Of a DNA stretch of 51,207 bases, positions 7,386-50,570 are shown in pieces. The position numbers and the translations under genes were made by a program. The notes under the pieces were generated by a model. That model saw only the letters and a program-made list of their open reading frames with translations. It had not been told where the DNA came from and did no database searches. Origin of the DNA: a virus; the IMG/VR virus record IMGVR_UViG_3300007517_000146, positions 1-51,207 of that record; one strand, 5' to 3'. Every line of letters begins with the position of its first letter. Positions within the stretch are counted from its first letter, which is position 1.

Positions 7386-7569
7386 AGGCCTCCTCTTGTG
7401 ATGGCATAGGTACGCATCAGTTTATGTATATGTGTGCTACCTGGATTCTGTACGCCATGCGCTAGTAACATGTAAGCATACGGTCAATACTATATACAAT
7501 AGCATGTACATAACTTACAAAGCGTGTGGTATACTAGTACCATCCTTTGTACCGCATGGCTTACCAACA
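7386..7569. promoter_or_regulatory. Divergent intergenic region before the first leader RNA
   Basis: This stretch separates the leftward fibre operon from the rightward leader RNA. It holds no ORF worth calling. A TATACT hexamer at 7530-7535 is a candidate -10 for rightward transcription about 35 nt before the leader. No convincing -35 accompanies it. The leftward operon must also start transcription here or nearby. Confidence 0.3.
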
Positions 7570-7640
7570 GTCAGGAACTCAGGTCTAAAGACACTGAGCT
7601 TGCTAGAGTAATCACTCACAAGCTATTCTGACCAGCTTAA

Positions 7641-7666
7641 GTCGCTACGCTCCTAGCGTTGCTAAG
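7641..7666. repeat. Element A-like hairpin in leader copy 1
   Basis: This stem has GCTACGCT and AGCGTTGC arms around a CCT loop. The same hairpin occurs at 19003-19028 in copy 2 and, almost identically, at 39038-39063 outside the leader. It is part of the RNA in both copies. Confidence 0.7.
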
Positions 7667-7896
7667 TCTTCACTGACTACGTTATTTGGGTCATGACACC
7701 GGAGAATGCGTAGCTAGTTCTCCGCTCTATCGCTAGTGGTTAAACAGTCTTAAAGTCACTGAGACAGTGCTGCTAGCCTAACAAGCCCCTATAACATTGG
7801 CGAAGCTAACATCACCCCGCAAGGGAGAGGCCCCACAAGGGCAACCATTATGCGTACAGGGTTGTAAGGTTTGAGATGGTAATTGTCCCATCGAAA

Positions 7897-7923
7897 GTGC
7901 CGTAGGCTACGACCCTTGGGGAG
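7897..7923. repeat. Dispersed hairpin element B, copy 1 (inside leader RNA)
   Basis: GTGCCGTAGGCTACGAC followed by CCTTGGGGAG. Comparison with leader copy 2 shows a clean 26-nt insertion into the loop between two conserved stems, so the element was added after, or lost from, one copy. It is related to 31141-31188 and 38909-38940. Confidence 0.75.
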
Positions 7924-8059
7924 TACAGTACAAAAGTACACCTAATCGAACAACTCCAAGGCGGTAATGGATACAGAAAGATTCACGGTGGTTAAACCCA
8001 CCCACGTTGTTTCCCTCTCAGGGCTCGAGCCACTGAGGTTCCCACTTACCGAGGTTTTT

Positions 8060-8536
8060 ATGACTGATAATGAATCCCTGATTGATATTACTTCTGACAC
8101 TATCGATAACTCTGAGGTAGGGGCCCAGCAAGAGATTGCTATGCCTGAGCAACGTATGCTCCCCGGTATGGATATCACTAAGATTGTGTATGATGAGGCT
8201 ATCCGCTTAGCAGGAGAGGGTACACCTCCCGCGTACTGTTTCATGCGTAATGATATCTATACCTTACTGGCGGCAGCTAATAGCGCACCCGGTATTATGC
8301 GCTGGGTTAACCCTGAACTGTCACTTGATTGCTACATCATCCCCTTCTTCCCCCGTGGAGATCAGAACCCTATCATCCTCGCACATAGTTATGAACAGGC
8401 ACAGGAAGTGGTCATTGCATCCTTCCCCGAAGGTACCTTCACCTTCGTCACCCCTGAAGGTAGTGCACAGGGCCAGGCGCACGGTACCACAAAGGAGTGT
8501 GATGTGCCCTCTAATGAGGCGGTAGATCTCCTGTAA
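8060..8536 (+). CDS. Hypothetical protein behind leader RNA copy 1 (158 aa)
   Basis: The function is not recognised. The N-terminal ~40 residues are acidic and probably disordered. The rest looks like a compact alpha/beta domain (ITKIVYDEAIRLAGEG, CYIIPFFPRGDQNPIILAHS, EVVIASFPEGTFTFVTPEG). ATG 8060 is chosen because the conserved leader ends exactly there and GAGG lies five bases upstream. An in-frame ATG at 7967 would extend the protein into the leader, but in copy 2 the equivalent frame is broken, so that extension is not supported. It is the first gene of its operon, matching the sliding-clamp candidate behind copy 2. Confidence 0.7.
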   Translation: MTDNESLIDITSDTIDNSEVGAQQEIAMPEQRMLPGMDITKIVYDEAIRLAGEGTPPAYCFMRNDIYTLLAAANSAPGIMRWVNPELSLDCYIIPFFPRGDQNPIILAHSYEQAQEVVIASFPEGTFTFVTPEGSAQGQAHGTTKECDVPSNEAVDLL

Positions 8537-18918: not shown

Positions 18919-19002
18919 AGGCCTAATAGACGTCAGGAACTCAGGTCTAAAGACACTGAGCTTGCTATAGTAATCTCTGGCAAGCCGTTCTGACCAGCTT
19001 AA

Positions 19003-19028
19003 GTCGCTACGCTCTTAGCGTTGCTAAG
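19003..19028. repeat. Element A-like hairpin in leader copy 2
   Basis: This is the homologous position to 7641-7666, with loop CTT instead of CCT and the stem unchanged. Confidence 0.7.
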
Positions 19029-19072
19029 TCTTAACTGACTACGTTATTTGAGTCATGACACCGGAGAATGCG

Positions 19073-19097
19073 ACGCTAGGTCGCTACGCTCCCAGCG
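19073..19097. repeat. Element A insertion in leader copy 2
   Basis: These 25 nt are absent from copy 1 at the same place (between GAATGCG and TAGCTAG). The core GGTCGCTACGCTCCCAGCG is identical to the reverse complement of the element at 39038-39063. Confidence 0.75.
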
Positions 19098-19413
19098 TAG
19101 CTAGTTCTCTGCTCTGTCGTTTGTAATTAAACAGTTCTAAAGTCACTGGAACAGTGTTGCAAGCCCAACAAGCCCTTATAACATTGGCGAAGCGAACATT
19201 ACCCCGCGAGGGAGAGGCATTTCTGCCGACCATTATGCGTACAGGATTGCGAAGCTTGAAATGGTAATTGTCCCATTGAGAGTACACTACAAAAGTACAC
19301 CGAGCCAAGCAACCCCAAGGCGGTAATGGATAGATTCACGGTGGTTAAAACCACCCACGTTGTTCCTATCTCAGGGCTCAAGCCACTGAGTTTCCCACTT
19401 ACCGAGAGTTTTT

Positions 19414-20502
19414 ATGAAGTACATTGTAAAGGATATCATCAGCTACGTATTAGCTATCAAGACAGCTTGGGCATTAGCCGCTAAGAAGGGTGAAAAGGAA
19501 GTACGCCTTAATCTTACAGGTAATATATTGACAGCTACAGCTATGGGAGGTGGGGCTATACTCCACTCCTCTATTGAAGTAGAAGGGGTCTTAGATGGCA
19601 CTGTCTGGGTAGATGGGGCGCAGTTAGTTAAGGTGTCCTCGCTAGTCCCTGTTGGGCGTGAACTGACTGTCACATTAGGTCAGGCGCTGATGTACCAGGT
19701 ACAAGGGTACGCATCACAGGATATAGTCTTATGTGCCTCGCACCCTACATTACCTAATGATATGGGTGTGAAGACACAACTATTCTCGGGTGCTAGTGTT
19801 GACTTGACTAGCTTGAATTGTGAGGATGGGAAGGCACTATCTACCTTATCGTTACAGGATTATGGTGTGGTACTGAATAGTAATATATCGGGTGCAGTAA
19901 TACGTACCATTATCCCCACCGCCTACACGTGCGCCCTACCCGTATTCACAGAGGTATCTGTACATATCCTCACTATCATGAAGAAGATGAAGGAGGCTGT
20001 ACTTTACCATCACGGTAAGAGTTACTTGGGGTTAGTAGATGGGTGCGTGGAACTATTGGTACCACTGACAGACTTCGCTAAGAATGACGTAGTGGATACT
20101 ATATCTGCATTACCTAGTGTGTATACATTAAGGGTACAACAATCAGACTTCCTATCTGCCCTGAATTGGAGTGCACTATCAACACCCACATCAGTCACCT
20201 TATCTTACAATGACCCCTTCCCTTACATTGAATTGACTGTCACCGGTACCACATCTCCTACTAAGATAGCCATGACGCAACAAGAGTCTGAGGATATGGA
20301 AGATGCTATCCTCACTATGGGTGATAATAAGTATGCCCCTACTACATTACTATCAGCCCTATCCGCATTACCTAAAGGGTTGATTACATTGACAGGGAAG
20401 TCATTCCCCGCTACCGATAACGAGAAGGCTATGGATATGTTATTACTATCCTCGCACAGTGATAGCGGCACTACAGATGTACTAGTTAGTGCATTAGCAT
20501 AA
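19414..20502 (+). CDS. Candidate DNA polymerase sliding clamp (beta-clamp-like, 362 aa)
   Basis: The length is close to bacterial DnaN (about 366 aa). The sequence has the alternating beta-strand/helix character of clamp repeats, with segments such as GTVWVDGAQLVKVSSLVPV and RELTVTLGQALMYQVQGY typical of the first clamp domain. Sequence identity to DnaN is too low for a motif-based call, so this is an inference. It is supported by the clamp-loader gene three genes downstream and the polymerase upstream. It is the first gene after leader RNA copy 2, so its expression is likely governed by that RNA. Confidence 0.55.
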   Translation: MKYIVKDIISYVLAIKTAWALAAKKGEKEVRLNLTGNILTATAMGGGAILHSSIEVEGVLDGTVWVDGAQLVKVSSLVPVGRELTVTLGQALMYQVQGYASQDIVLCASHPTLPNDMGVKTQLFSGASVDLTSLNCEDGKALSTLSLQDYGVVLNSNISGAVIRTIIPTAYTCALPVFTEVSVHILTIMKKMKEAVLYHHGKSYLGLVDGCVELLVPLTDFAKNDVVDTISALPSVYTLRVQQSDFLSALNWSALSTPTSVTLSYNDPFPYIELTVTGTTSPTKIAMTQQESEDMEDAILTMGDNKYAPTTLLSALSALPKGLITLTGKSFPATDNEKAMDMLLLSSHSDSGTTDVLVSALA

Positions 20503-38180: not shown

Positions 38181-38254
38181 GGAGCTATAGTTCAGATGGA
38201 TAGAACAGGACATTCCTATCGTCAAGGTCGCAGGTTCGAGTCCTGCTAGCTCCA
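38181..38254 (+). tRNA. tRNA-Arg (anticodon CCU)
   Basis: This is a 74-nt cloverleaf: acceptor GGAGCTA/TAGCTCC, D-arm GTTC/GAAC, T-arm GCAGG-TTCGAGT-CCTGC, discriminator A, CCA not encoded. The anticodon loop is TTCCTAT, giving CCU for AGG codons. The anticodon stem is weak: A31-C39 and G27-A43 are mismatched. AGG is a common Arg codon in this genome's genes, so the tRNA probably compensates for low host supply. A spurious reverse-strand ORF across it is the usual tRNA shadow. Confidence 0.9.
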
Positions 38255-38849: not shown

Positions 38850-39041
38850 AGATATGGGTCGCAATGAACTACAGTCATTACAACAGCTACTCAATACTAT
38901 GACAAGTAGTGCCGTGGGCCACGACCCTTCTTGAGTGGGGTGATGAAGCTAGTACATACCGCTATCAATGCAGAGCTAGAAGATATTAAGACAACCGATG
39001 TACGTGATATGTTGACCACCCTATCAAGGAGTACAGTCTAG
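38806..39041 (+). pseudogene. Small helical gene interrupted by a hairpin element
   Basis: GTG 38806, with AGGAG nine bases upstream, opens VDIKDVQPELRRLFKDMGRN and so on for 42 codons, then stops at 38932-38934 within element B. A second frame from ATG 38943 (MKLVHTAINAELEDI and onward) ends at TAG 39039-39041. Removing exactly the 32-nt element (38909-38940) joins both halves into one uninterrupted frame of about 67 codons. The product would be a helical protein of unknown function. Two separate tiny genes are the alternative. Confidence 0.5.
38909..38940. repeat. Dispersed hairpin element B, copy 3 (inside a small gene)
   Basis: It begins GTGCCGTGGGCCACGACCC and ends in TTGAGTGGGG, matching the element in leader RNA copy 1 and at 31141. 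It introduces a stop in the host reading frame. Confidence 0.7.
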
Positions 39042-39063
39042 CAACGCTGGGAGCGTAGCGACC
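39038..39063. repeat. Dispersed hairpin element A
   Basis: CTAGCAACGCTGGGAGCGTAG followed by CGACC forms a stem of ACGCT/AGCGT with flanking complementarity. It provides the TAG stop of the preceding small frame, as the diverged copy at 36371 does for its neighbour. Confidence 0.75.
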
Positions 39064-39095
39064 TACTCTCCACACATACATAAGGATTACCAGTA

Positions 39096-40940: not shown

Positions 40941-43900
40941 CTACGTTAAGGCGCTATGCCCGGGGTATGCGACGGCTTGTATTACAACATCCATGAAGTA
41001 CACATTCAATGGGCTGTAAGTCTTCTTTACCACAACCTTCTGATTGGTAGTAGACCGGGCCTTATCTACCATCAGAGGGGCAGGCGTGGGGGCCTGTATA
41101 CTACTAGGGTGCGCTGCTGGTAAGTTCACCTTTAAGGTCACGCCCTTCGGTGTACCATCAGATACTGCCTTCTTAATGGATGCAGTAAGAGTAGCGACTG
41201 CCTTCATATCTACTTGCTCCCTAATTGATAGGGTAGTCCCAGCCACTGCACTGGGGGCCATAATAGCAACCACCCTATCATATGAGGCTTGTATGTGCCT
41301 CCTCTCCTCCTTGAGGATGACCTCCTTATTACTGGCAGATGATAGTATAGACCTCCATATGTACTGCCCTATGATGGTCTGATTATGTAACTGACCACGT
41401 AACTTAATCTCAGAGGAGATCATATTATCTACTACAGAGTCAGGTCTCAGTGCACTATTGGTGGGGGCTGTAGGGCTGTACCCATATATGGATGGGTCTA
41501 CGATAGATGATGCTACCCTATCCCCCGTGTAATCCATATTGAGCTCTATAGTCTTCTGGAACTCCCACTCTATCGCTTGCTGCGCTGTACCTACAAAGAA
41601 TGGACTATCTGAACCCATAGGGTTGGTATACCCCTGCAACCACGTACCCCTCTTAGTAGCAAGGAATCCCTCCCCTATCATAGGCACATCTTTAGTAGCC
41701 CCCGATAGGGTGGATGTAATCTTACTCCATACTCTCTGCATCCCCTTCGGGTCTAGCGTCCCCCATAACCCCATTACTAAGGCACTAGTTAAAGCTACAC
41801 CTCCCGCTATAACTGCCCCACCCGCTATCGCAGCAGCACCGGCCCCTAATCCTAATACACCCGCTATACCCGCACCAGCAGCCATTACTGCCCCACTACC
41901 CGCCACATACGATAGGCTGGCTATAGCACCCCCTAATGCAATACCGCCTATCGCACCACCTAACATAGCTACACCTGTGGCACCTGTCTTCTTACCTACT
42001 GTGTCTACAGTATTGGCTAATGTATTTACAGACCAATCAAATACCTTAGATACCCCCTTAGCAGTCGCTGTCACACCTGTAGTTATCGCAGTGCCGGCAC
42101 CCCCTAATCCTTTACCTATTGCAGACCCTGTATTACTAACCCACCCATTGACTGAATCTTTTATACCCTGCGGTGCTAGTAAGTTAACTAGACCGTACGT
42201 GGCTGTCCCTATCGCACCTATAGCTAATAATCCTAGACCCACTAAAGAGGCAATACTACCGAAGGTTAACCCTACACCTCCTGTAATTAATGCCCCCGCT
42301 AATCCAACCATAACCCCTATACCGGCTACCAACTTACCGCCTACAAACATTACGCCAGCCATCACACCGGCGGATAGTAAGCTCATAGCCCCTACATACC
42401 CAGCCTCTTGTGCTAACTCCTTCTGCTCCCCTGTTGTATAAGTGGAGTCGGGTGCATAAGCTTCTGCCGCCCTACCGAATGCCCCCCATATATCAGTGGC
42501 CTCGAATAGACTGAACACTGAGAATAGTGTCTCTGTCAGAACCCCTGCACCTTTCTGTACCTTCCCCCAATTGGTAGGCTTACTCCTCCTAGCTCTCCAC
42601 TCTGCATCAGACATACCGCCACCTATACCACGGGGTGTTGATGATACACCCGGCCCCATCCTCCTACCTGGTTGTGTGGTAGCGTGGGGCGTGGCATTAT
42701 GACCCATATCTATACTCTCACCCAATAGTTCCTCAAACCTATCCGCTACATCTAAGGGCAAGGGTGTCGCCATACCTGCCCATTCATGCCTCATCTTCCC
42801 TAGGGGCCCGCCCTTATCTCTTAGCTTATCCAATGCCCTCTGCACTAAGTGGAGTATCCCATCCTCATCAGTCTTCACCGCCCCCTTATTCAACTTCAAT
42901 AGGGAGCCTGACTGGTGTAACTCGCTCTCCACTACCTCCCTTATTACCTTCTTTATCTCATCCTTATAGGTGCCCACAGGGTCTAATAACTCTACCCCCG
43001 TGGGTGTTACTACTGTATTGTATGGCTGCATACCATCCGCAAACCTATTCGCTATAGATGCCTGGAACCCCTCCCCATAAACACTTCCCCATGACTTAGG
43101 GTTCGCTACTATCTGCTCTATAGGGGCATTAGTGAATATCGATAGGAATGGTACCCTATACTCTACTACATCCTTACCAACTAATACCTTACTAACTAGA
43201 GATGTATTGTCTAAGGCAGTGAAGTACCTATCAACTACATCCAATACTGGCGATGATATCTCATCTACTAATGTACTGACCCGCATAGGCTTACCGTGTA
43301 CATTAGTCACGGCATTAGTAACTTGCTGTAGGTACGGTTGTGTCCTCATGTAATCACCAAATAGGACACCATTAGTCTTCAAGGAACTATTGATGGCGTC
43401 TTGCGCTATCTCTACAATCTGGTGTACCTTAGCAGGTGGTAATATCACAGCACTCTGTGCCACACCCCTAGTAGTGACATTATCCGTAAGGTGTGGGTTT
43501 ATTGAGTACATCGCCCCATGCTTACCCTCACTTATCGTATATAGGTTATGGGGGGTCAATTGTGTACCGGCAGGGGATACTACTCTCGCCACCCTATGTG
43601 GGTATATCTCGTACTCACCCACCTTCCTACGTAAGAACCAATCCCTAGAGTAATGTTTATCTAATGCTTCCTCTATGGCATTCACTTCCCTATTCAAGAA
43701 GAACCCACCTACTGATGCAGCAGCAAACATACCCAATGTACCTACTGCTGTCAGCCCTACTGTATACGCTATAGGTGTAGGTAGTACCCCTAGTAACATA
43801 CGAGCGGGTGTCCATAGGGGACTATCCGTTAAGGATGTCTTACCACTTATACCAGTTGCTACTTCATCCTCAATCCACTCCCCTTGCGCTAGCGGGACAG

Positions 43901-46900
43901 TGTCATCCCTCAGACCATTCTTACTCACACTGAACGCTTTGATACCATGTATGCGTACCTCCCTCATCATATTCCCGAAGGTACTACTTATTAACTTACT
44001 ACCCGTGAGTATCGCCCCCATTAGACTACTATCCATACCGTTATAGGCTGGATTCATATCCTCCTTCAACATGGCCGATATTAATGACTCAGGGGGCTGA
44101 TGCGCCATCTGCTTAGTGACCGCTTGCCTATGTGATAGTGCGAGAGCTATCAAAGGATCCTTAGCAGCAGCCGATAAGGCACCCGCACTAGGGACACTAT
44201 ACTTTCTAGGCTTAGCTAAGGGTTGCATCTTGGCAGTGTACGAGAGTATACCTATAGATGCCCTCCTCAAATGGGCCTGAGTTATTGGTACATTCTCCTT
44301 AGTCAATGTCTGTAACTCCCTCATGGCATTGACCATATTGAAGTGTAAGTCCTGACTAGTACCTATTGAATTGAAGAGGAATGATGCGGACATAGAGTAC
44401 GTGGCAGTTGATAGGTCAGCCCCCGCCCCTTGCACCTGTAAGTATGGCGTCACTCTATCCCCAAACTCGCCCCTCCTCAATGTCACACCACCTAGTACCT
44501 GCACCCCCACGAACGCATTGGGGGCATCGAATACTATTAACTCTGACATCTGCTTCCATAGTGAACTGGCAGTAGCCCCTAACTCTTTGCTACCCTTCAA
44601 CATCTTCCTATTAGTTAGGAGATTGATACCACCACCCTCTTTAACGTACTGCTTCGCTAATAGGGACTCCTCATTAATAGACCTATCAGTGCCCGTAAAT
44701 AACCGCACTGTATCCCCTATGGATCTCATTAGGCTATTGCCACCATCTAAGTGGTCATATAACCTATCCATACTATCTTTACCCATAGATGCAGTAACTA
44801 ACCCTACACCTAATGCTACTGCCCCTAATAGAGTCGCACCCTTTAATGCTCTCCTAGGTAATAGGTCAGGTAATAACTTCAACGATACACCTATACCGCG
44901 CCCTTTCGAGACTACTGTATCGAGGGCCGTCTCAACTTCCTGGCTTATGTTGGGGGTTATCTGTACCGCCTTATGTATCTTATTATCGTATAGAACCTTC
45001 GAGGCATTATGGTACTCCTGTAAGTTACTGGCTAGTGCATCCCCACCTATATCGTGACCCCTCCTCAAGATTGTATCTATATCCTTCTCTAAGTGCGATG
45101 CCTTCCACTGCAATATACTCTCCCTCGCTTGCGCCATTATATTATCTGTAGGGGCCGGTCTCTTCCTACGTACTAATCTCATGTACTCATCTACTGTATC
45201 CCCGGCACTCTTCCCCATGCCACCGTACATCGTCATGGCAGCAGTACTTACAGTTGCATACATCGCCACTGTCATAGCCCTCTGATATGTCCACCCCCCT
45301 GCCTCTAAGTTGGGGATGGCACCTGTCGCATCCGTTGGTGCCTTGTACCCTAATATAGGTACCCATGAGGGGAAGTACTCGCCCTCTAACTTGCGTGTGG
45401 ATTCAGCATTGAATGCAGCATTACCTCTCTCCTGGTACCCAGACCATGAGGGGGGTTTATCCATACCTATAGCTATACCGAATGTAGATGATGTGAATAG
45501 CGTCCCCAATGTGGCCATAAGCGCTAGCACACCCGCCCCCCTACCTATTACCTTCTTCAATGTATTAGGTAATGGGATGCGTGGTCTCCCCATACGGGAT
45601 ATAATGCCAGCCCCTAAGCGGCTCTCCTTAGTTAGGGCCGCTGCCATATACAAGCCACTCCCTGCTACTGCACCTATTACACCACCGGTAGTAGACCCCG
45701 CCTGCGATGCGTAAGGGTCTGTAGGACTAGATGACATCACCGCACCAAGGGCACTACCTGCTGCCGCCCCTAATACACCCCATATTAGGGCCCGACCTAT
45801 ATGTCTACCATAGAATGATGGGTCAGTTAATGCGGAACGGGTACCTATTGTTGTAGGTGTCTGCAACATCCCCTGCGCTATAGATGATGGGGATTGTATC
45901 GCAGGCATTACCTTCGGCATGAATGCCTTACCAGCAACCATATAATCTACACCAGTCATTGACATACTGATGCGTAAGGCACTACTCGGTAGTATTAGGG
46001 CCGTATCCGTTAAGGCAGTCACTACCCCACGTATCCCTTTATCCCACCCCCCATCTAACATGTTCTTCATGAATGGGGTACGTGTTGCCAGAGACCGTAT
46101 ACCCGCCTGTGCTAGGTTAGCAGTCCCTGTTATCAATCCTAATCCAGTGAGTGTCGTCAGTATTGCTGTACGTACCGTAGAGAAGTCACCCATAAATGTC
46201 CCAACATTAGGGTCTTCATTCAGGGCCAAACCTACAGTCCCCCTAGCATCCCTTGTGACCTTGAATGGTAATGGTATGGGGATAGATATACCCGTTACAA
46301 TAGGGCCCTGTATACCTACAGAGTAATAGGATGTACCCATAGTCCTCATAGACCCATCTTCATTATAGGTCGCACCCTTTATACTCTCCGCCATGAACAT
46401 CTGCAGGTTAGGGAGTACGGCCTGCTTCGCTATGACCTGTGTACCTCCTCTTACATAGCCTGGTTCCTGTTCCTTACCACGTAAGGTCTTCATCCACCCC
46501 ATCGCATAGTAAGCGCCCATTAACTCAAGGCGTGAAGCATCCCCCGCCCTCGCCCTATCCTTCACCCTTTTGACGTACGTTGTCATGTCTGCGAGTATAG
46601 TGCCTTCCTTCTTATTCACTGTCTCCCAATCATCCCTCCCTACCTTCAGGAATGATGTGAACATACCCGCTACTAATCCCAACCCACCTCCTATAAGGGC
46701 CCCTGCCAATCCCCTCCTACCCTTACCACCTACTGCCTTACCCACACCTACACCCACTAATCCCAATGCTATAGGGTCTAATGTACCCTCTCTACCTTCT
46801 CTCATTGAAGATGTCACGGTACCTATGGCCGCACCTACTACTGCCCCAACTATCGTACCTAATACGATACCCTTACCTCCCATCGTGCGTCCTAGTATAC

Positions 46901-49900
46901 TGCCGGCAGCTACTGCCCCTAATGACCCAAGGACTGTACTATCTAATGTCCCCGATGATGTCATACTCCTTGAGGTATTCATTGCCCCTGCAATGCCCTT
47001 TGTTAAGACTGTCATCGCTACTAATGATAGTGCCCATGCGGCAGCCGTATTCCTCCACTTATTACCTTCTAAGGCTGCGAACGACATACGCATGAAGTCA
47101 TCTTCCACACCACTCATGTGCAGTACTACGCGCGGTGTATTAGGGAATAGTTCTATTCCTACCATCCCCCCATTAAAGGATGTTACCTTCGGGTGTGGTA
47201 CTGCACCACTAATGGCACCAGATAACTCACTGGCTGTAATATTCAATGCCTTCGCTACCGTATCCCTTCTCATGGCGTACGTGAGTATTCGCTGTCCCTG
47301 CTTAGCGGAGGCAATGTAATGTGCTGGCACGAATAACCCTGCCGCTAATAGGTAATCTAGTGGCATACCGGCTACTGTTGGCAGTAACGCATCCCCTTTA
47401 AATTCACTAGATACCTGTATACCCTCAGCCCTCAGTGATAGGGCCGTAGTTAATTGGGTGAATATAGATACCCCATCAGTCGTACGCACTAACTTCTCCG
47501 CGAATAGGCTGAGGGCTATGATACTAATCGCTGCAGTACCTAACTTACCTTTAGTAACACCAGATGTGGCATCCTTCCCCCACCCCGCACGCACCCTATC
47601 TAACTTCTTCTTAGTCACGCCAGACATGTATGATGCGTGCTGCCGTGACCTCAGTGTCTCCCCTATAATGGACATCGCCTTAGAACCTACCTCACCCCTC
47701 GCCCCTGGTATCTTGAGGACATCTAACATCACATCATCTATTAATGTTATCTCTCTTACTAATGGATCTACTAATGGCCCTAACTTCATCTGCGTAGCTC
47801 TATATATCTCTGCCTGCACCTTAGTACTCGCTATATCCAATGCAGGGTTCATGGCCTTCATACCCTGTACTACCTCATCCTCTACCCTCTGCAGCATATC
47901 CGCAGGTATCTCATGCCCCCACCTTATATTACCGCTAGCAAACAGTGACCTCTCCATCTTCGATATAGCTACTGAGGATGCCTCTAAAGACTTCACTACC
48001 TCACGCCTCTCTTTAATGTGCTGGAGTATCCTACCTGGGCCTTCTGTTATTGCATTCAATACACCCAGATCAGGGCCGAGGGTATTACTCAAGGCCTTGT
48101 ACTCTGCTAAGTACTCACTTAACCCACCTGTACCTTGCAGTGCGCGCCCTATTGAATTAGTTACCTCATCGAAGGAGAATATATCACCCAGTACCTTGAT
48201 GTCTTTAGAACTCTCCACACCACCACCGAAGTGCTTACTCACTGCCCTGAATTGCGTTATAGGTAATGGTACAAGGTCCAATACCTCCTGTATTACAGAC
48301 GCTACACGTGATGCCCTATCCTTGCCAGCATTCTTTAACCTGAATGTGACATTGGCTATATCATCATCTACCTTCGCATACTTACCCGTCAGTACTACAT
48401 CCGCCCTCGCTTGCTGCCACGCATTACTAATACGGGGATTAGCTTGTAGTAGTACCTGACTCCTCTCTTCTACATCCCTAATGAATGCCAGTGCTCTACT
48501 AGAACTATCATTGAGCTCTACATCAAGGAAGGCTGGTCTCTTCATCTCATTGACTACATTACTCAACCCCTTACGCAATTCTCTAGCCCCTTCCGACCCC
48601 TCAGTGTATGGGTCTATGTGCTCTAAGATAAATGGCTTGAGCGTGTTCTCCATCAATGTACCAGACCTCTCTCTCGTCAAGGTAGACATGTGGTACACAC
48701 TCGCACCCATCCTATCTAGTGAATAGAACCCTTTCATACCATACGCCCCCTCCATTCTCTGAAGGTCTGCCATGGCAGATTCTAATAGTGCCTTACCTTT
48801 AGTAGTGCGTGGGTCATGCTGCACCATTATCTGTGAGCCTACTACTGCCTTCCTTTCTACAGATAAGTAATCCACCATAGACCGGGCCCTCTCTAACCCC
48901 TCATAGTCTGCCCTAGTGGTACTACCTATCTCACGCAGTAACTCCTCCCTATACTCCGTTACATTGGTTGCCCCTATACCCATGCCCGTAGTTAACTGTC
49001 TAGCAAAGATACCCTGTACCATACCCCCTCTGAAGGTATTAGCGGAGGCACCCACATTAATTAGGGATTCCACCTCACCTTTCATCATCTCCCCTAAGAG
49101 GATGTTAATAGGTTCACCTATCGCTAAATACAGAGCCACAGATGATGCTGCACCTATCGCTATCTCTGTCCCCTTACTCAAGAACGTCTCGAAGAACCCC
49201 TTACTCTCCCCTGGGTAACTTAAGCCTCCCTTACCTATTACCTGCCCATTATCCTTATCACCCCACAGTGCACCACTAGGTGAGGCATATAGGTACGTCC
49301 TATCTAATACCCTACCTATTAATCCCGTTATTGAGGGTATGAACCCTACCTCATCCTTATATAATCTACCCCAATCATTACTAGCGCCCCACTCATTGAT
49401 GGCCGCACCTAAGCCCCCACCAGTTAACTCCTTATCGTACTGTGTCACATAGGATGTCGTTAACCCTACACCTGCACCTAGTAACCCACCCGCTAATGTG
49501 CCTATTAGGGCCCCACCTACACGGCCACTGAGCCCGCCCATTAATGTACCTACTAATGCACCCGCCACTACAGTACTGCCCACGTCCTGTGGTAATGAGT
49601 TTGCGTTACGCCCATGCTTCGCTAAATACCCCACCTGGTACATTGACGTGGCTACTGACGCATCATCATTAGTTATTATGTTCTCAGTTAGCCCTGCTTG
49701 CCTCATTAGGGCATTGTATTGACCACGGGCATAGAAGTACGAACCACCCATAGATGCAGGGAGTAAATACCCCTGATCTTTGCTTGCTAGTGATGCAAAT
49801 CCTTGCGGTATACCTAATGCCTTGGCTCTGTCTTCTACTACCTGACGCTCTATTAATGCCCTATTAGTTTTAGATGCAGTACTCTCTTGTAGTGGTATGA

Positions 49901-50570
49901 GCATAGATACTATAGTACCTATTGTTGGATGCTTATACTCAACTGGCATTATGTAAGAGGGGTCACTGTATAATCCCTTACCTTGCTCTACCGTCTTTAA
50001 CCACTCCTTCCGTAGTTCAGGCGTGAAGACATCGCTACTATAGAACCTAGTGCCTGGTTGGTATGGGTGTGCATACCCTTCTTTTATAAGGGTCTGAGCT
50101 ACAGACTTACCCTCCCCCGTAATGATGTCTCCTACGTACCTACCAAACTTATCCTTCTCCTTAAATGATACAGATACAGTACCATCACCTACTAACTCTT
50201 TGACACGTTCTGTACCTTCCCACCCAAATGGTTGATTGAATGCTTTACCTACTGCTGATAGAGGGTTGTACCCATTACTATTACTGTACCTACTCCATGG
50301 GTTTAACGCATCCCATACCTGGGACTTGTGCGATAACTCTGGCGCATCTACACCCTCTAACCTTATAATCTTCCTATCACCGTCTATCTTTACGGTGAAC
50401 GTATCCGCATCTGCTATATTGGTAATGACACCTCTTACTAACTTACTACTACCTCCCCTACTACTAATAGGCCGCATCCCTGTATTACTAATATCATTAC
50501 GTACCCCATGCCCATACTGCTGCGTAGGGTATCTCTGCATGTACCCCTCATCCCACCCACTACCACCCAT
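40941..50570 (-). CDS. Giant tape-measure-like protein with N-terminal nuclease domain (3209 aa)
   Basis: Residues about 45-195 form a staphylococcal-nuclease-like domain: D54/D56 (ADADTFTV), R70, D75-A-P-E78 (RLEGVDAPE) and R144 (KFGRYVGD), so the catalytic set looks complete, with an extra ~30-residue insertion after E78. The rest alternates long helical stretches with many Gly/Ala-rich hydrophobic segments (for example AGALVGTLMGGLSGRVGG), as in tape-measure proteins that span the membrane during DNA injection. At about 0.15 nm per residue it would imply a tail near 480 nm if entirely helical. The size, position among structural genes and hydrophobic segments support the call. A virion injection or surface protein is an alternative. 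Confidence 0.7.
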   Translation of the reverse strand: MGGSGWDEGYMQRYPTQQYGHGVRNDISNTGMRPISSRGGSSKLVRGVITNIADADTFTVKIDGDRKIIRLEGVDAPELSHKSQVWDALNPWSRYSNSNGYNPLSAVGKAFNQPFGWEGTERVKELVGDGTVSVSFKEKDKFGRYVGDIITGEGKSVAQTLIKEGYAHPYQPGTRFYSSDVFTPELRKEWLKTVEQGKGLYSDPSYIMPVEYKHPTIGTIVSMLIPLQESTASKTNRALIERQVVEDRAKALGIPQGFASLASKDQGYLLPASMGGSYFYARGQYNALMRQAGLTENIITNDDASVATSMYQVGYLAKHGRNANSLPQDVGSTVVAGALVGTLMGGLSGRVGGALIGTLAGGLLGAGVGLTTSYVTQYDKELTGGGLGAAINEWGASNDWGRLYKDEVGFIPSITGLIGRVLDRTYLYASPSGALWGDKDNGQVIGKGGLSYPGESKGFFETFLSKGTEIAIGAASSVALYLAIGEPINILLGEMMKGEVESLINVGASANTFRGGMVQGIFARQLTTGMGIGATNVTEYREELLREIGSTTRADYEGLERARSMVDYLSVERKAVVGSQIMVQHDPRTTKGKALLESAMADLQRMEGAYGMKGFYSLDRMGASVYHMSTLTRERSGTLMENTLKPFILEHIDPYTEGSEGARELRKGLSNVVNEMKRPAFLDVELNDSSSRALAFIRDVEERSQVLLQANPRISNAWQQARADVVLTGKYAKVDDDIANVTFRLKNAGKDRASRVASVIQEVLDLVPLPITQFRAVSKHFGGGVESSKDIKVLGDIFSFDEVTNSIGRALQGTGGLSEYLAEYKALSNTLGPDLGVLNAITEGPGRILQHIKERREVVKSLEASSVAISKMERSLFASGNIRWGHEIPADMLQRVEDEVVQGMKAMNPALDIASTKVQAEIYRATQMKLGPLVDPLVREITLIDDVMLDVLKIPGARGEVGSKAMSIIGETLRSRQHASYMSGVTKKKLDRVRAGWGKDATSGVTKGKLGTAAISIIALSLFAEKLVRTTDGVSIFTQLTTALSLRAEGIQVSSEFKGDALLPTVAGMPLDYLLAAGLFVPAHYIASAKQGQRILTYAMRRDTVAKALNITASELSGAISGAVPHPKVTSFNGGMVGIELFPNTPRVVLHMSGVEDDFMRMSFAALEGNKWRNTAAAWALSLVAMTVLTKGIAGAMNTSRSMTSSGTLDSTVLGSLGAVAAGSILGRTMGGKGIVLGTIVGAVVGAAIGTVTSSMREGREGTLDPIALGLVGVGVGKAVGGKGRRGLAGALIGGGLGLVAGMFTSFLKVGRDDWETVNKKEGTILADMTTYVKRVKDRARAGDASRLELMGAYYAMGWMKTLRGKEQEPGYVRGGTQVIAKQAVLPNLQMFMAESIKGATYNEDGSMRTMGTSYYSVGIQGPIVTGISIPIPLPFKVTRDARGTVGLALNEDPNVGTFMGDFSTVRTAILTTLTGLGLITGTANLAQAGIRSLATRTPFMKNMLDGGWDKGIRGVVTALTDTALILPSSALRISMSMTGVDYMVAGKAFMPKVMPAIQSPSSIAQGMLQTPTTIGTRSALTDPSFYGRHIGRALIWGVLGAAAGSALGAVMSSSPTDPYASQAGSTTGGVIGAVAGSGLYMAAALTKESRLGAGIISRMGRPRIPLPNTLKKVIGRGAGVLALMATLGTLFTSSTFGIAIGMDKPPSWSGYQERGNAAFNAESTRKLEGEYFPSWVPILGYKAPTDATGAIPNLEAGGWTYQRAMTVAMYATVSTAAMTMYGGMGKSAGDTVDEYMRLVRRKRPAPTDNIMAQARESILQWKASHLEKDIDTILRRGHDIGGDALASNLQEYHNASKVLYDNKIHKAVQITPNISQEVETALDTVVSKGRGIGVSLKLLPDLLPRRALKGATLLGAVALGVGLVTASMGKDSMDRLYDHLDGGNSLMRSIGDTVRLFTGTDRSINEESLLAKQYVKEGGGINLLTNRKMLKGSKELGATASSLWKQMSELIVFDAPNAFVGVQVLGGVTLRRGEFGDRVTPYLQVQGAGADLSTATYSMSASFLFNSIGTSQDLHFNMVNAMRELQTLTKENVPITQAHLRRASIGILSYTAKMQPLAKPRKYSVPSAGALSAAAKDPLIALALSHRQAVTKQMAHQPPESLISAMLKEDMNPAYNGMDSSLMGAILTGSKLISSTFGNMMREVRIHGIKAFSVSKNGLRDDTVPLAQGEWIEDEVATGISGKTSLTDSPLWTPARMLLGVLPTPIAYTVGLTAVGTLGMFAAASVGGFFLNREVNAIEEALDKHYSRDWFLRRKVGEYEIYPHRVARVVSPAGTQLTPHNLYTISEGKHGAMYSINPHLTDNVTTRGVAQSAVILPPAKVHQIVEIAQDAINSSLKTNGVLFGDYMRTQPYLQQVTNAVTNVHGKPMRVSTLVDEISSPVLDVVDRYFTALDNTSLVSKVLVGKDVVEYRVPFLSIFTNAPIEQIVANPKSWGSVYGEGFQASIANRFADGMQPYNTVVTPTGVELLDPVGTYKDEIKKVIREVVESELHQSGSLLKLNKGAVKTDEDGILHLVQRALDKLRDKGGPLGKMRHEWAGMATPLPLDVADRFEELLGESIDMGHNATPHATTQPGRRMGPGVSSTPRGIGGGMSDAEWRARRSKPTNWGKVQKGAGVLTETLFSVFSLFEATDIWGAFGRAAEAYAPDSTYTTGEQKELAQEAGYVGAMSLLSAGVMAGVMFVGGKLVAGIGVMVGLAGALITGGVGLTFGSIASLVGLGLLAIGAIGTATYGLVNLLAPQGIKDSVNGWVSNTGSAIGKGLGGAGTAITTGVTATAKGVSKVFDWSVNTLANTVDTVGKKTGATGVAMLGGAIGGIALGGAIASLSYVAGSGAVMAAGAGIAGVLGLGAGAAAIAGGAVIAGGVALTSALVMGLWGTLDPKGMQRVWSKITSTLSGATKDVPMIGEGFLATKRGTWLQGYTNPMGSDSPFFVGTAQQAIEWEFQKTIELNMDYTGDRVASSIVDPSIYGYSPTAPTNSALRPDSVVDNMISSEIKLRGQLHNQTIIGQYIWRSILSSASNKEVILKEERRHIQASYDRVVAIMAPSAVAGTTLSIREQVDMKAVATLTASIKKAVSDGTPKGVTLKVNLPAAHPSSIQAPTPAPLMVDKARSTTNQKVVVKKTYSPLNVYFMDVVIQAVAYPGHSALT

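Follow-up and report, generated by a model that had tools for sequence, protein, structure and literature searches.

Two leader-like repeats in a viral contig are probable non-autonomous HEARO/IscB elements with a conserved RNA domain in the iscB position

IscB is a relative of Cas9 that resembles its ancestor, and its guide RNA normally ends at the start of the nuclease gene. ATGA or GTGA was reportedly given as the insertion site of HEARO by Weinberg in 2009, and Altae-Tran is said to have described, in 2021, standalone, trans-acting omega RNAs in Ktedonobacter racemifer with no nuclease gene at the locus. To our knowledge, standalone omega RNA loci have not been reported to carry a second conserved RNA domain. 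IscB nucleases use HEARO as their omega (guide) RNA, more than 16% of contigs with HEARO-associated nucleases are classed as viral, and only a few of these nucleases are associated with the transposase TnpA (PMC9755519). Here we describe two related stretches in a 51,207-nt viral DNA (IMG/VR record IMGVR_UViG_3300007517_000146, positions 1 to 51,207; the whole stretch is called the window below). We conclude, with a probability of about 0.86, that each is a non-autonomous IS200/IS605-type HEARO/IscB element whose omega RNA works with IscB in trans. Neither the omega RNA nor this type of element is new; what is new, as far as our tools show, is a conserved RNA domain, called X, that replaces iscB and is spread in cyanobacteria and their phages.

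The two copies lie at 7570-8059 and 18932-19413, where an earlier sequence-only reading had placed them, and share 79% identity over 516-520 alignment columns (E 3e-82). They form the strongest repeat in the window, leaving aside a short-period array at 1-198, which consists of short direct repeats with a 24-nt period and is broken off by the contig end. Similarity starts at the first bases GTCAGGAACTCAG and runs to the last base directly before the ATGA of the next gene, so that 8059 is the final base of copy 1. The downstream genes, which are unrelated to each other, begin exactly there, with ATGA at 8060 and 19414, as the same reading had it. The features are as follows.

7554 to 7569, plus strand: predicted guide of copy 1 (5' flank), outside the element; the flank differs at every copy
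7570 to 8059, plus strand: copy 1, whole non-autonomous element, 490 nt, delimited by the end of its similarity to copy 2; site empty in phage OR578706
7570 to 7815, plus strand: HEARO RNA (IscB omega RNA scaffold) of copy 1; RF02033, 144.5 bits
7578 to 7598, plus strand: 5' end hairpin of copy 1, CTCAGGTCTAAAGACACTGAG, recognized in the sequence
7843 to 7970, plus strand: domain X of copy 1, with a 26-nt insertion in this copy; model R1, 98.6 bits
8017 to 8037, plus strand: 3' end hairpin of copy 1, CTCAGGGCTCGAGCCACTGAG, recognized in the sequence; its arms covary among 41 elements
8051 to 8054, plus strand: Shine-Dalgarno-like GAGG in the tail of copy 1, 5 nt ahead of the ATG; putative function
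8060 to 8063, plus strand: ATGA, target and predicted TAM of copy 1 and start codon of gene 1; [AG]TGA adjoins other elements likewise
8060 to 8536, plus strand: gene 1, 158 aa, function unassigned; orthologue in OR578706
18916 to 18931, plus strand: predicted guide of copy 2 (5' flank); boundary set by the empty site ATAGAC/ATGAAG
18932 to 19413, plus strand: copy 2, the element in full, 482 nt; its site is cleanly empty in OR578706
18932 to 19202, plus strand: HEARO RNA of copy 2; RF02033, 130.9 bits
18940 to 18960, plus strand: 5' end hairpin of copy 2, recognized in the sequence
19228 to 19329, plus strand: domain X of copy 2; model R1, 114.3 bits
19370 to 19390, plus strand: 3' end hairpin of copy 2, recognized in the sequence
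19404 to 19408, plus strand: Shine-Dalgarno-like GAGAG in the tail of copy 2, 5 nt ahead of the ATG; putative function
19414 to 19417, plus strand: ATGA, target and predicted TAM of copy 2 and start codon of the sliding-clamp candidate
19414 to 20502, plus strand: gene behind copy 2, 362 aa, taken as a sliding-clamp candidate from its position beside the DNA polymerase and clamp loader

The sliding-clamp candidate has no PHROG match and no NCBIfam match. The frame of gene 1 is open upstream into copy 1 from an ATG at 7967 (7967-8536), and a fusion peptide with its start inside the element is possible there. A small palindromic repeat (TCGCTACGCTCYYAGCG) occurs at 7638-7664, 19077-19104 and 39038-39065; it sits in omega RNA loops and elsewhere, and is also dispersed in phage contig G004. 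The window further contains a tRNA-Arg (CCT) at 38181-38254 and a 3209-aa ORF on the minus strand at 40941-50570.

cmscan against Rfam, the check that the sequence-only reading had itself proposed for an RNA it called unidentified, matched the 5' half of both copies to HEARO (RF02033) at full model length (model 1-211), with both scores above the gathering threshold of 83. A high-scoring hit to a known family was what that reading had named as grounds for refutation, and its word unidentified does not hold for the 5' half. Like the omega RNAs of known IscB systems, the window copies have a variable flank in the guide position and ATGA/GTGA adjoining the element. They differ from them in having a 102-nt domain X, and no iscB ORF, after HEARO; such an ORF follows HEARO directly in L009, L011 and L010. 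The IscB-coding HEARO elements (ISC/IS200-IS605; L009, L011, L012) share with the window copies HEARO, the end segment, the hairpins and the ATGA target, but measure about 1.6 kb with iscB, whereas the window copies are ORF-less elements of about 0.48 kb with X. With the standalone omega RNAs reported from Ktedonobacter racemifer they have in common that nuclease-free omega RNA loci outnumber nuclease genes; in contrast to those, the elements described here are delimited, phage-borne and located at start codons.

Imperfect hairpins at the two element ends match each other in sequence, and the design CTCAG-NNC-loop-GNC-A-CTGAG, which the earlier reading had noted in the first and last hairpins, is common to both in each copy. 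The two further differences between copies that it had listed are also present: the compensatory change GCCC/GGGC versus GGCA/TGCC, and the loop change GCAA versus GCGA.

Viral relatives were sought via the DNA polymerase and clamp, and none was found besides the overlapping 62-kb contig G005, a 100% match to window 19090-20500. An annotated phage collection yielded Microcoleus phage My-WqHQDG (OR578706.1), which has orthologues of both downstream genes and of neighbouring genes, with the element absent at both sites. The gene 1 orthologue shares 56% identity over residues 32-127; the orthologue of the clamp candidate shares 61% over residues 1-334 and lies 15 nt after the preceding gene. Both are annotated as starting at the very same ATG as in the window. 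At site 2 the flanks are joined exactly in OR578706 (ATAGAC/ATGAAG), with no target duplication: the site reads ..TTACATAGACATGAAGTACAT.. there and ..CTAATAGAC/element/ATGAAGTACAT.. in the window. Site 1 lacks the element as well, and the upstream non-coding flank there is too diverged to fix the 5' boundary from the empty site alone. The absence from both OR578706 sites and the exact junction at site 2 demonstrate that each window copy is an inserted mobile element.

The copies had been described as a leader RNA common to two operons. They do stand in the leader of two transcription units, and this part of the description holds; as an account of what they are it fails, since the relative has both genes without the element and near-identical copies occupy unrelated sites in cyanobacterial chromosomes. 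We therefore regard it as very improbable that they are cis-acting leaders regulating two phage replication operons, with mobility incidental. Their position at the start codons of two genes, one of them next to the DNA polymerase, would fit such a role, as would tails with GAGG/GAGAG 5 nt ahead of the ATG and an X that is conserved and specific to the sense strand. However, many cyanobacteria have the element before genes of other kinds and at ATGA sites where no gene starts, the Shine-Dalgarno-like motif is rare among cellular copies, and the 5' half belongs to a guide RNA of a nuclease. The replication and packaging roles considered earlier found no support.

Patterns from the end hairpins and the 3' half were used to locate further copies in viral contigs and cyanobacterial genomes; some were found in the former and many in the latter. 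A profile built from five phage copies detected 42 full-length elements (nhmmer), of which the 41 that were aligned measure about 430-540 nt. In all 42 the 5' flanks are unrelated and [AG]TGA adjoins the 3' end, and the same holds for the 3' end of 38 of 40 additional copies. Copies at unrelated loci of one chromosome are up to 99.5% identical, with the match stopping at the element boundaries, which indicates recent transposition.

The elements occur in three architectures that have the HEARO start and the end segment in common: HEARO with iscB (about 1.6 kb), HEARO with X (about 440 nt) and HEARO alone (about 370 nt). Among 130 above-cutoff HEAROs from eight cyanobacterial genomes, 60 are followed by X, 27 by IscB and 43 by neither, and X and IscB never occur together. 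X begins 20-35 nt past HEARO in 56 of the 60, and IscB 27-47 nt past it. In a sample of 98 cyanobacterial genomes, X is present in 12, with a maximum of 32 copies per genome. A second subfamily (L210, L211, L212, L213, L215) also ends at ATGA and has mutually matching end hairpins of its own, CCCCGGC..GGGACGGGG and CCGTCCTAAAAGGACGGGG, which suggests a second transposase specificity. An apparent third tail type, ..CACGGCGCGAGGTGTTTG/GTGA, was observed on X elements of one cyanobacterial genome (L339, L345, L346, L347), and a second genome has a tail like it.

No IscB and no Y1 transposase (PF01797) was found in the window or in contig G005. Complete IscB is encoded in all eight cyanobacterial genomes searched, and also in related phage contigs (L009 and L011/L012) whose element ends are identical in type to those of the window. 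OR578707, the sister record of OR578706, encodes IscB with its own HEARO. Phage contig L010 carries an IS605 that encodes TnpA and TnpB and bears at its ends a hairpin of the window-element design, and TnpA with similar ends was found in G006/L010. Because iscB and tnpA are absent from the viral contig, which is an incomplete phage genome, activity of the elements depends on partners elsewhere, a point that counts against our preferred reading, and from the sequences at hand we infer mobilisation in trans.

By analogy with IscB biology, the 5' flanks probably act as the guides of the omega RNAs; the predicted length of 16 nt is an assumption taken from known IscB guides. With co-opted TnpB guides as the parallel, the window omega RNAs might have been domesticated, and kept to aim a host or phage IscB at element-free rival phages or to repress or cut host loci. 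The guides would derive from phage gene flanks beside ATGA, making element-free relatives their natural targets; IscB is carried by related phages; and 16% of HEARO nuclease contigs are classed as viral (PMC9755519). This seems unlikely to us: sequence does not set it apart from plain selfish homing, and OR578706, the one known relative, matches only about 6 bases beside the ATGA at site 2 and would not be cut.

Elements adjoin gene starts more often than expected. In a first sample, 28 of 40 assessable elements adjoin an ORF of at least 60 codons that starts exactly at the ATG, against a background of 22% for the remaining ATGA positions of these loci (p 2e-10). A second, independent sample, drawn mostly from three further chromosomes, gave 23 of 38 against a background of 15% (p 1e-10). 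ATGA is often the ATG of a start codon plus the following A, and insertions therefore land at gene starts, in sense orientation. The enrichment must in part be survival bias, insertions within genes being lost, but intergenic ATGA is also available as a target. We found no link between IscB elements and start codons in the literature that could be searched.

Confinement of X to gene-adjoining copies was considered and rejected (28 of 40 X elements versus 11 of 22 HEARO-only elements; Fisher p 0.17, not significant). A general Shine-Dalgarno sequence in the element tail was rejected as well, GAGG being present in only 6 of 41 aligned elements; the sequences suggest that some copies at most, window copy 1 among them, may supply their own ribosome site.

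Domain X is a single RNA domain of about 102 nt in the iscB position, with an internal loop and two hairpins. It matches no family in Rfam 15 (scans of copy 1 up to E 1 and of the X from a homologous element up to E 10), and the same searches of the 3' half gave no group I or II intron, riboswitch or ribozyme match. The earlier exclusion of group I and II introns, RNase P and tmRNA was thus borne out, and its view that this is a genuine structured RNA is upheld by the alignment: across 55 related sequences, 97% of cells in the 30-pair structure are standard pairs, and 11 of the 30 pairs are changed on both sides, above all 500 shuffles (127 cells versus 42 in shuffles). GATGG/CCATC versus AATGG/CCATT, a change already pointed out between the two window copies, lies in helix 3. 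The covariation score is 0.286, compared with 0.194±0.007 when shuffled and at most 0.09 when slid, and the alifold energy has a z of -6.9 against column shuffles. The cells hold 238 G-U and 23 A-C, and this excess shows that the plus strand, that of the omega RNA, is under selection. Nothing on X was found in the literature that could be searched.

In the second subfamily (L210-L215) HEARO scores 25-34 bits where it is still detected, and X 62-88 bits. X keeps its score where HEARO has drifted; it is therefore the better-conserved part and must have a function. These data bear directly on the proposal that X is leftover iscB sequence in internally deleted, decayed copies. X does sit in the iscB position with equal spacing, and one of its frames, SKHYAYRVARF, weakly resembles an IscB arginine-rich stretch, SRHTRYRPARF. 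Against this, tblastn of four IscB proteins stayed at chance level (best E about 0.07), base pairing in X is strongly constrained and shows compensatory changes, X recurs in 60 of 130 HEARO loci, and in the second subfamily it is better conserved than HEARO. We consider this proposal scarcely credible and reject it.

Our best guess for X is a 3' domain with an accessory or stabilising role in a trans-acting omega RNA. Among the points against the best explanation are two that concern X. In 44 elements, the highest-ranking covarying pairs include no stack that joins HEARO and X. OR578706 also has a free-standing X at 116561-116690 on the minus strand (L306:1562-1691; 53.8 bits), in an intergenic region, and no HEARO is detected beside it at E up to 1, which a simple reading of X as the omega RNA 3' domain does not predict. 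About 300 nt that fold well precede this X, which may be the 3' domain of another RNA. The window contains no free-standing syntenic X above noise.

X may have an accessory effect on the gene behind it or on the processing of the RNA. A more specific version, in which X is a self-cleaving or RNase-recruiting module that frees the omega RNA from the mRNA of the host gene, would suit a compact single domain with the guide RNA on one side and the captured start codon on the other; we think it quite improbable, as X matches no Rfam ribozyme family and 43 of 130 HEARO elements do without it. The elements resemble group I intron IStrons in that there, too, an RNA module renders an IS605-type insertion harmless (PMC4227781), but they have no Rfam group I or II intron match, and X is not a known ribozyme.

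Each element is built of a 5' hairpin, a full HEARO omega RNA, X, a 3' hairpin and a U-rich tail adjoining ATGA. Under our preferred reading, a Y1 transposase (TnpA) in trans would excise the element and insert it 5' of its target ATGA, which would also serve as the TAM beside the guide target. The omega RNA would be transcribed as the leader of the gene behind it, which would remain intact. The host or a related phage would provide IscB in trans; loaded with the omega RNA and guided by the 5' flank, the nuclease would cut at flank+ATGA in alleles that lack the element, and repair templated by the copy that has it would restore the element in the cut allele (homing).

A bolder idea, which we hold only tentatively and think less probable than its negation, is that X, as an RNA module, has its own function (processing, protein recruitment or nuclease substitution) and has taken the place of the nuclease gene throughout a class of selfish elements. 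If so, these RNA-only elements would consist of a guide RNA and a helper RNA and would settle at start codons while leaving the gene unsilenced, and phages would also have adopted X as a free-standing RNA (OR578706, 116561-116690). The form of the element seen most often in cyanobacteria and their phages lacks a nuclease, and has a second strongly conserved RNA domain instead. This makes it testable whether guide-RNA-only elements live on trans-acting IscB, which RNA can replace a nuclease gene, and how a mobile element occupies start codons without killing the gene, and it would offer a compact natural omega RNA variant and a new candidate for Rfam.
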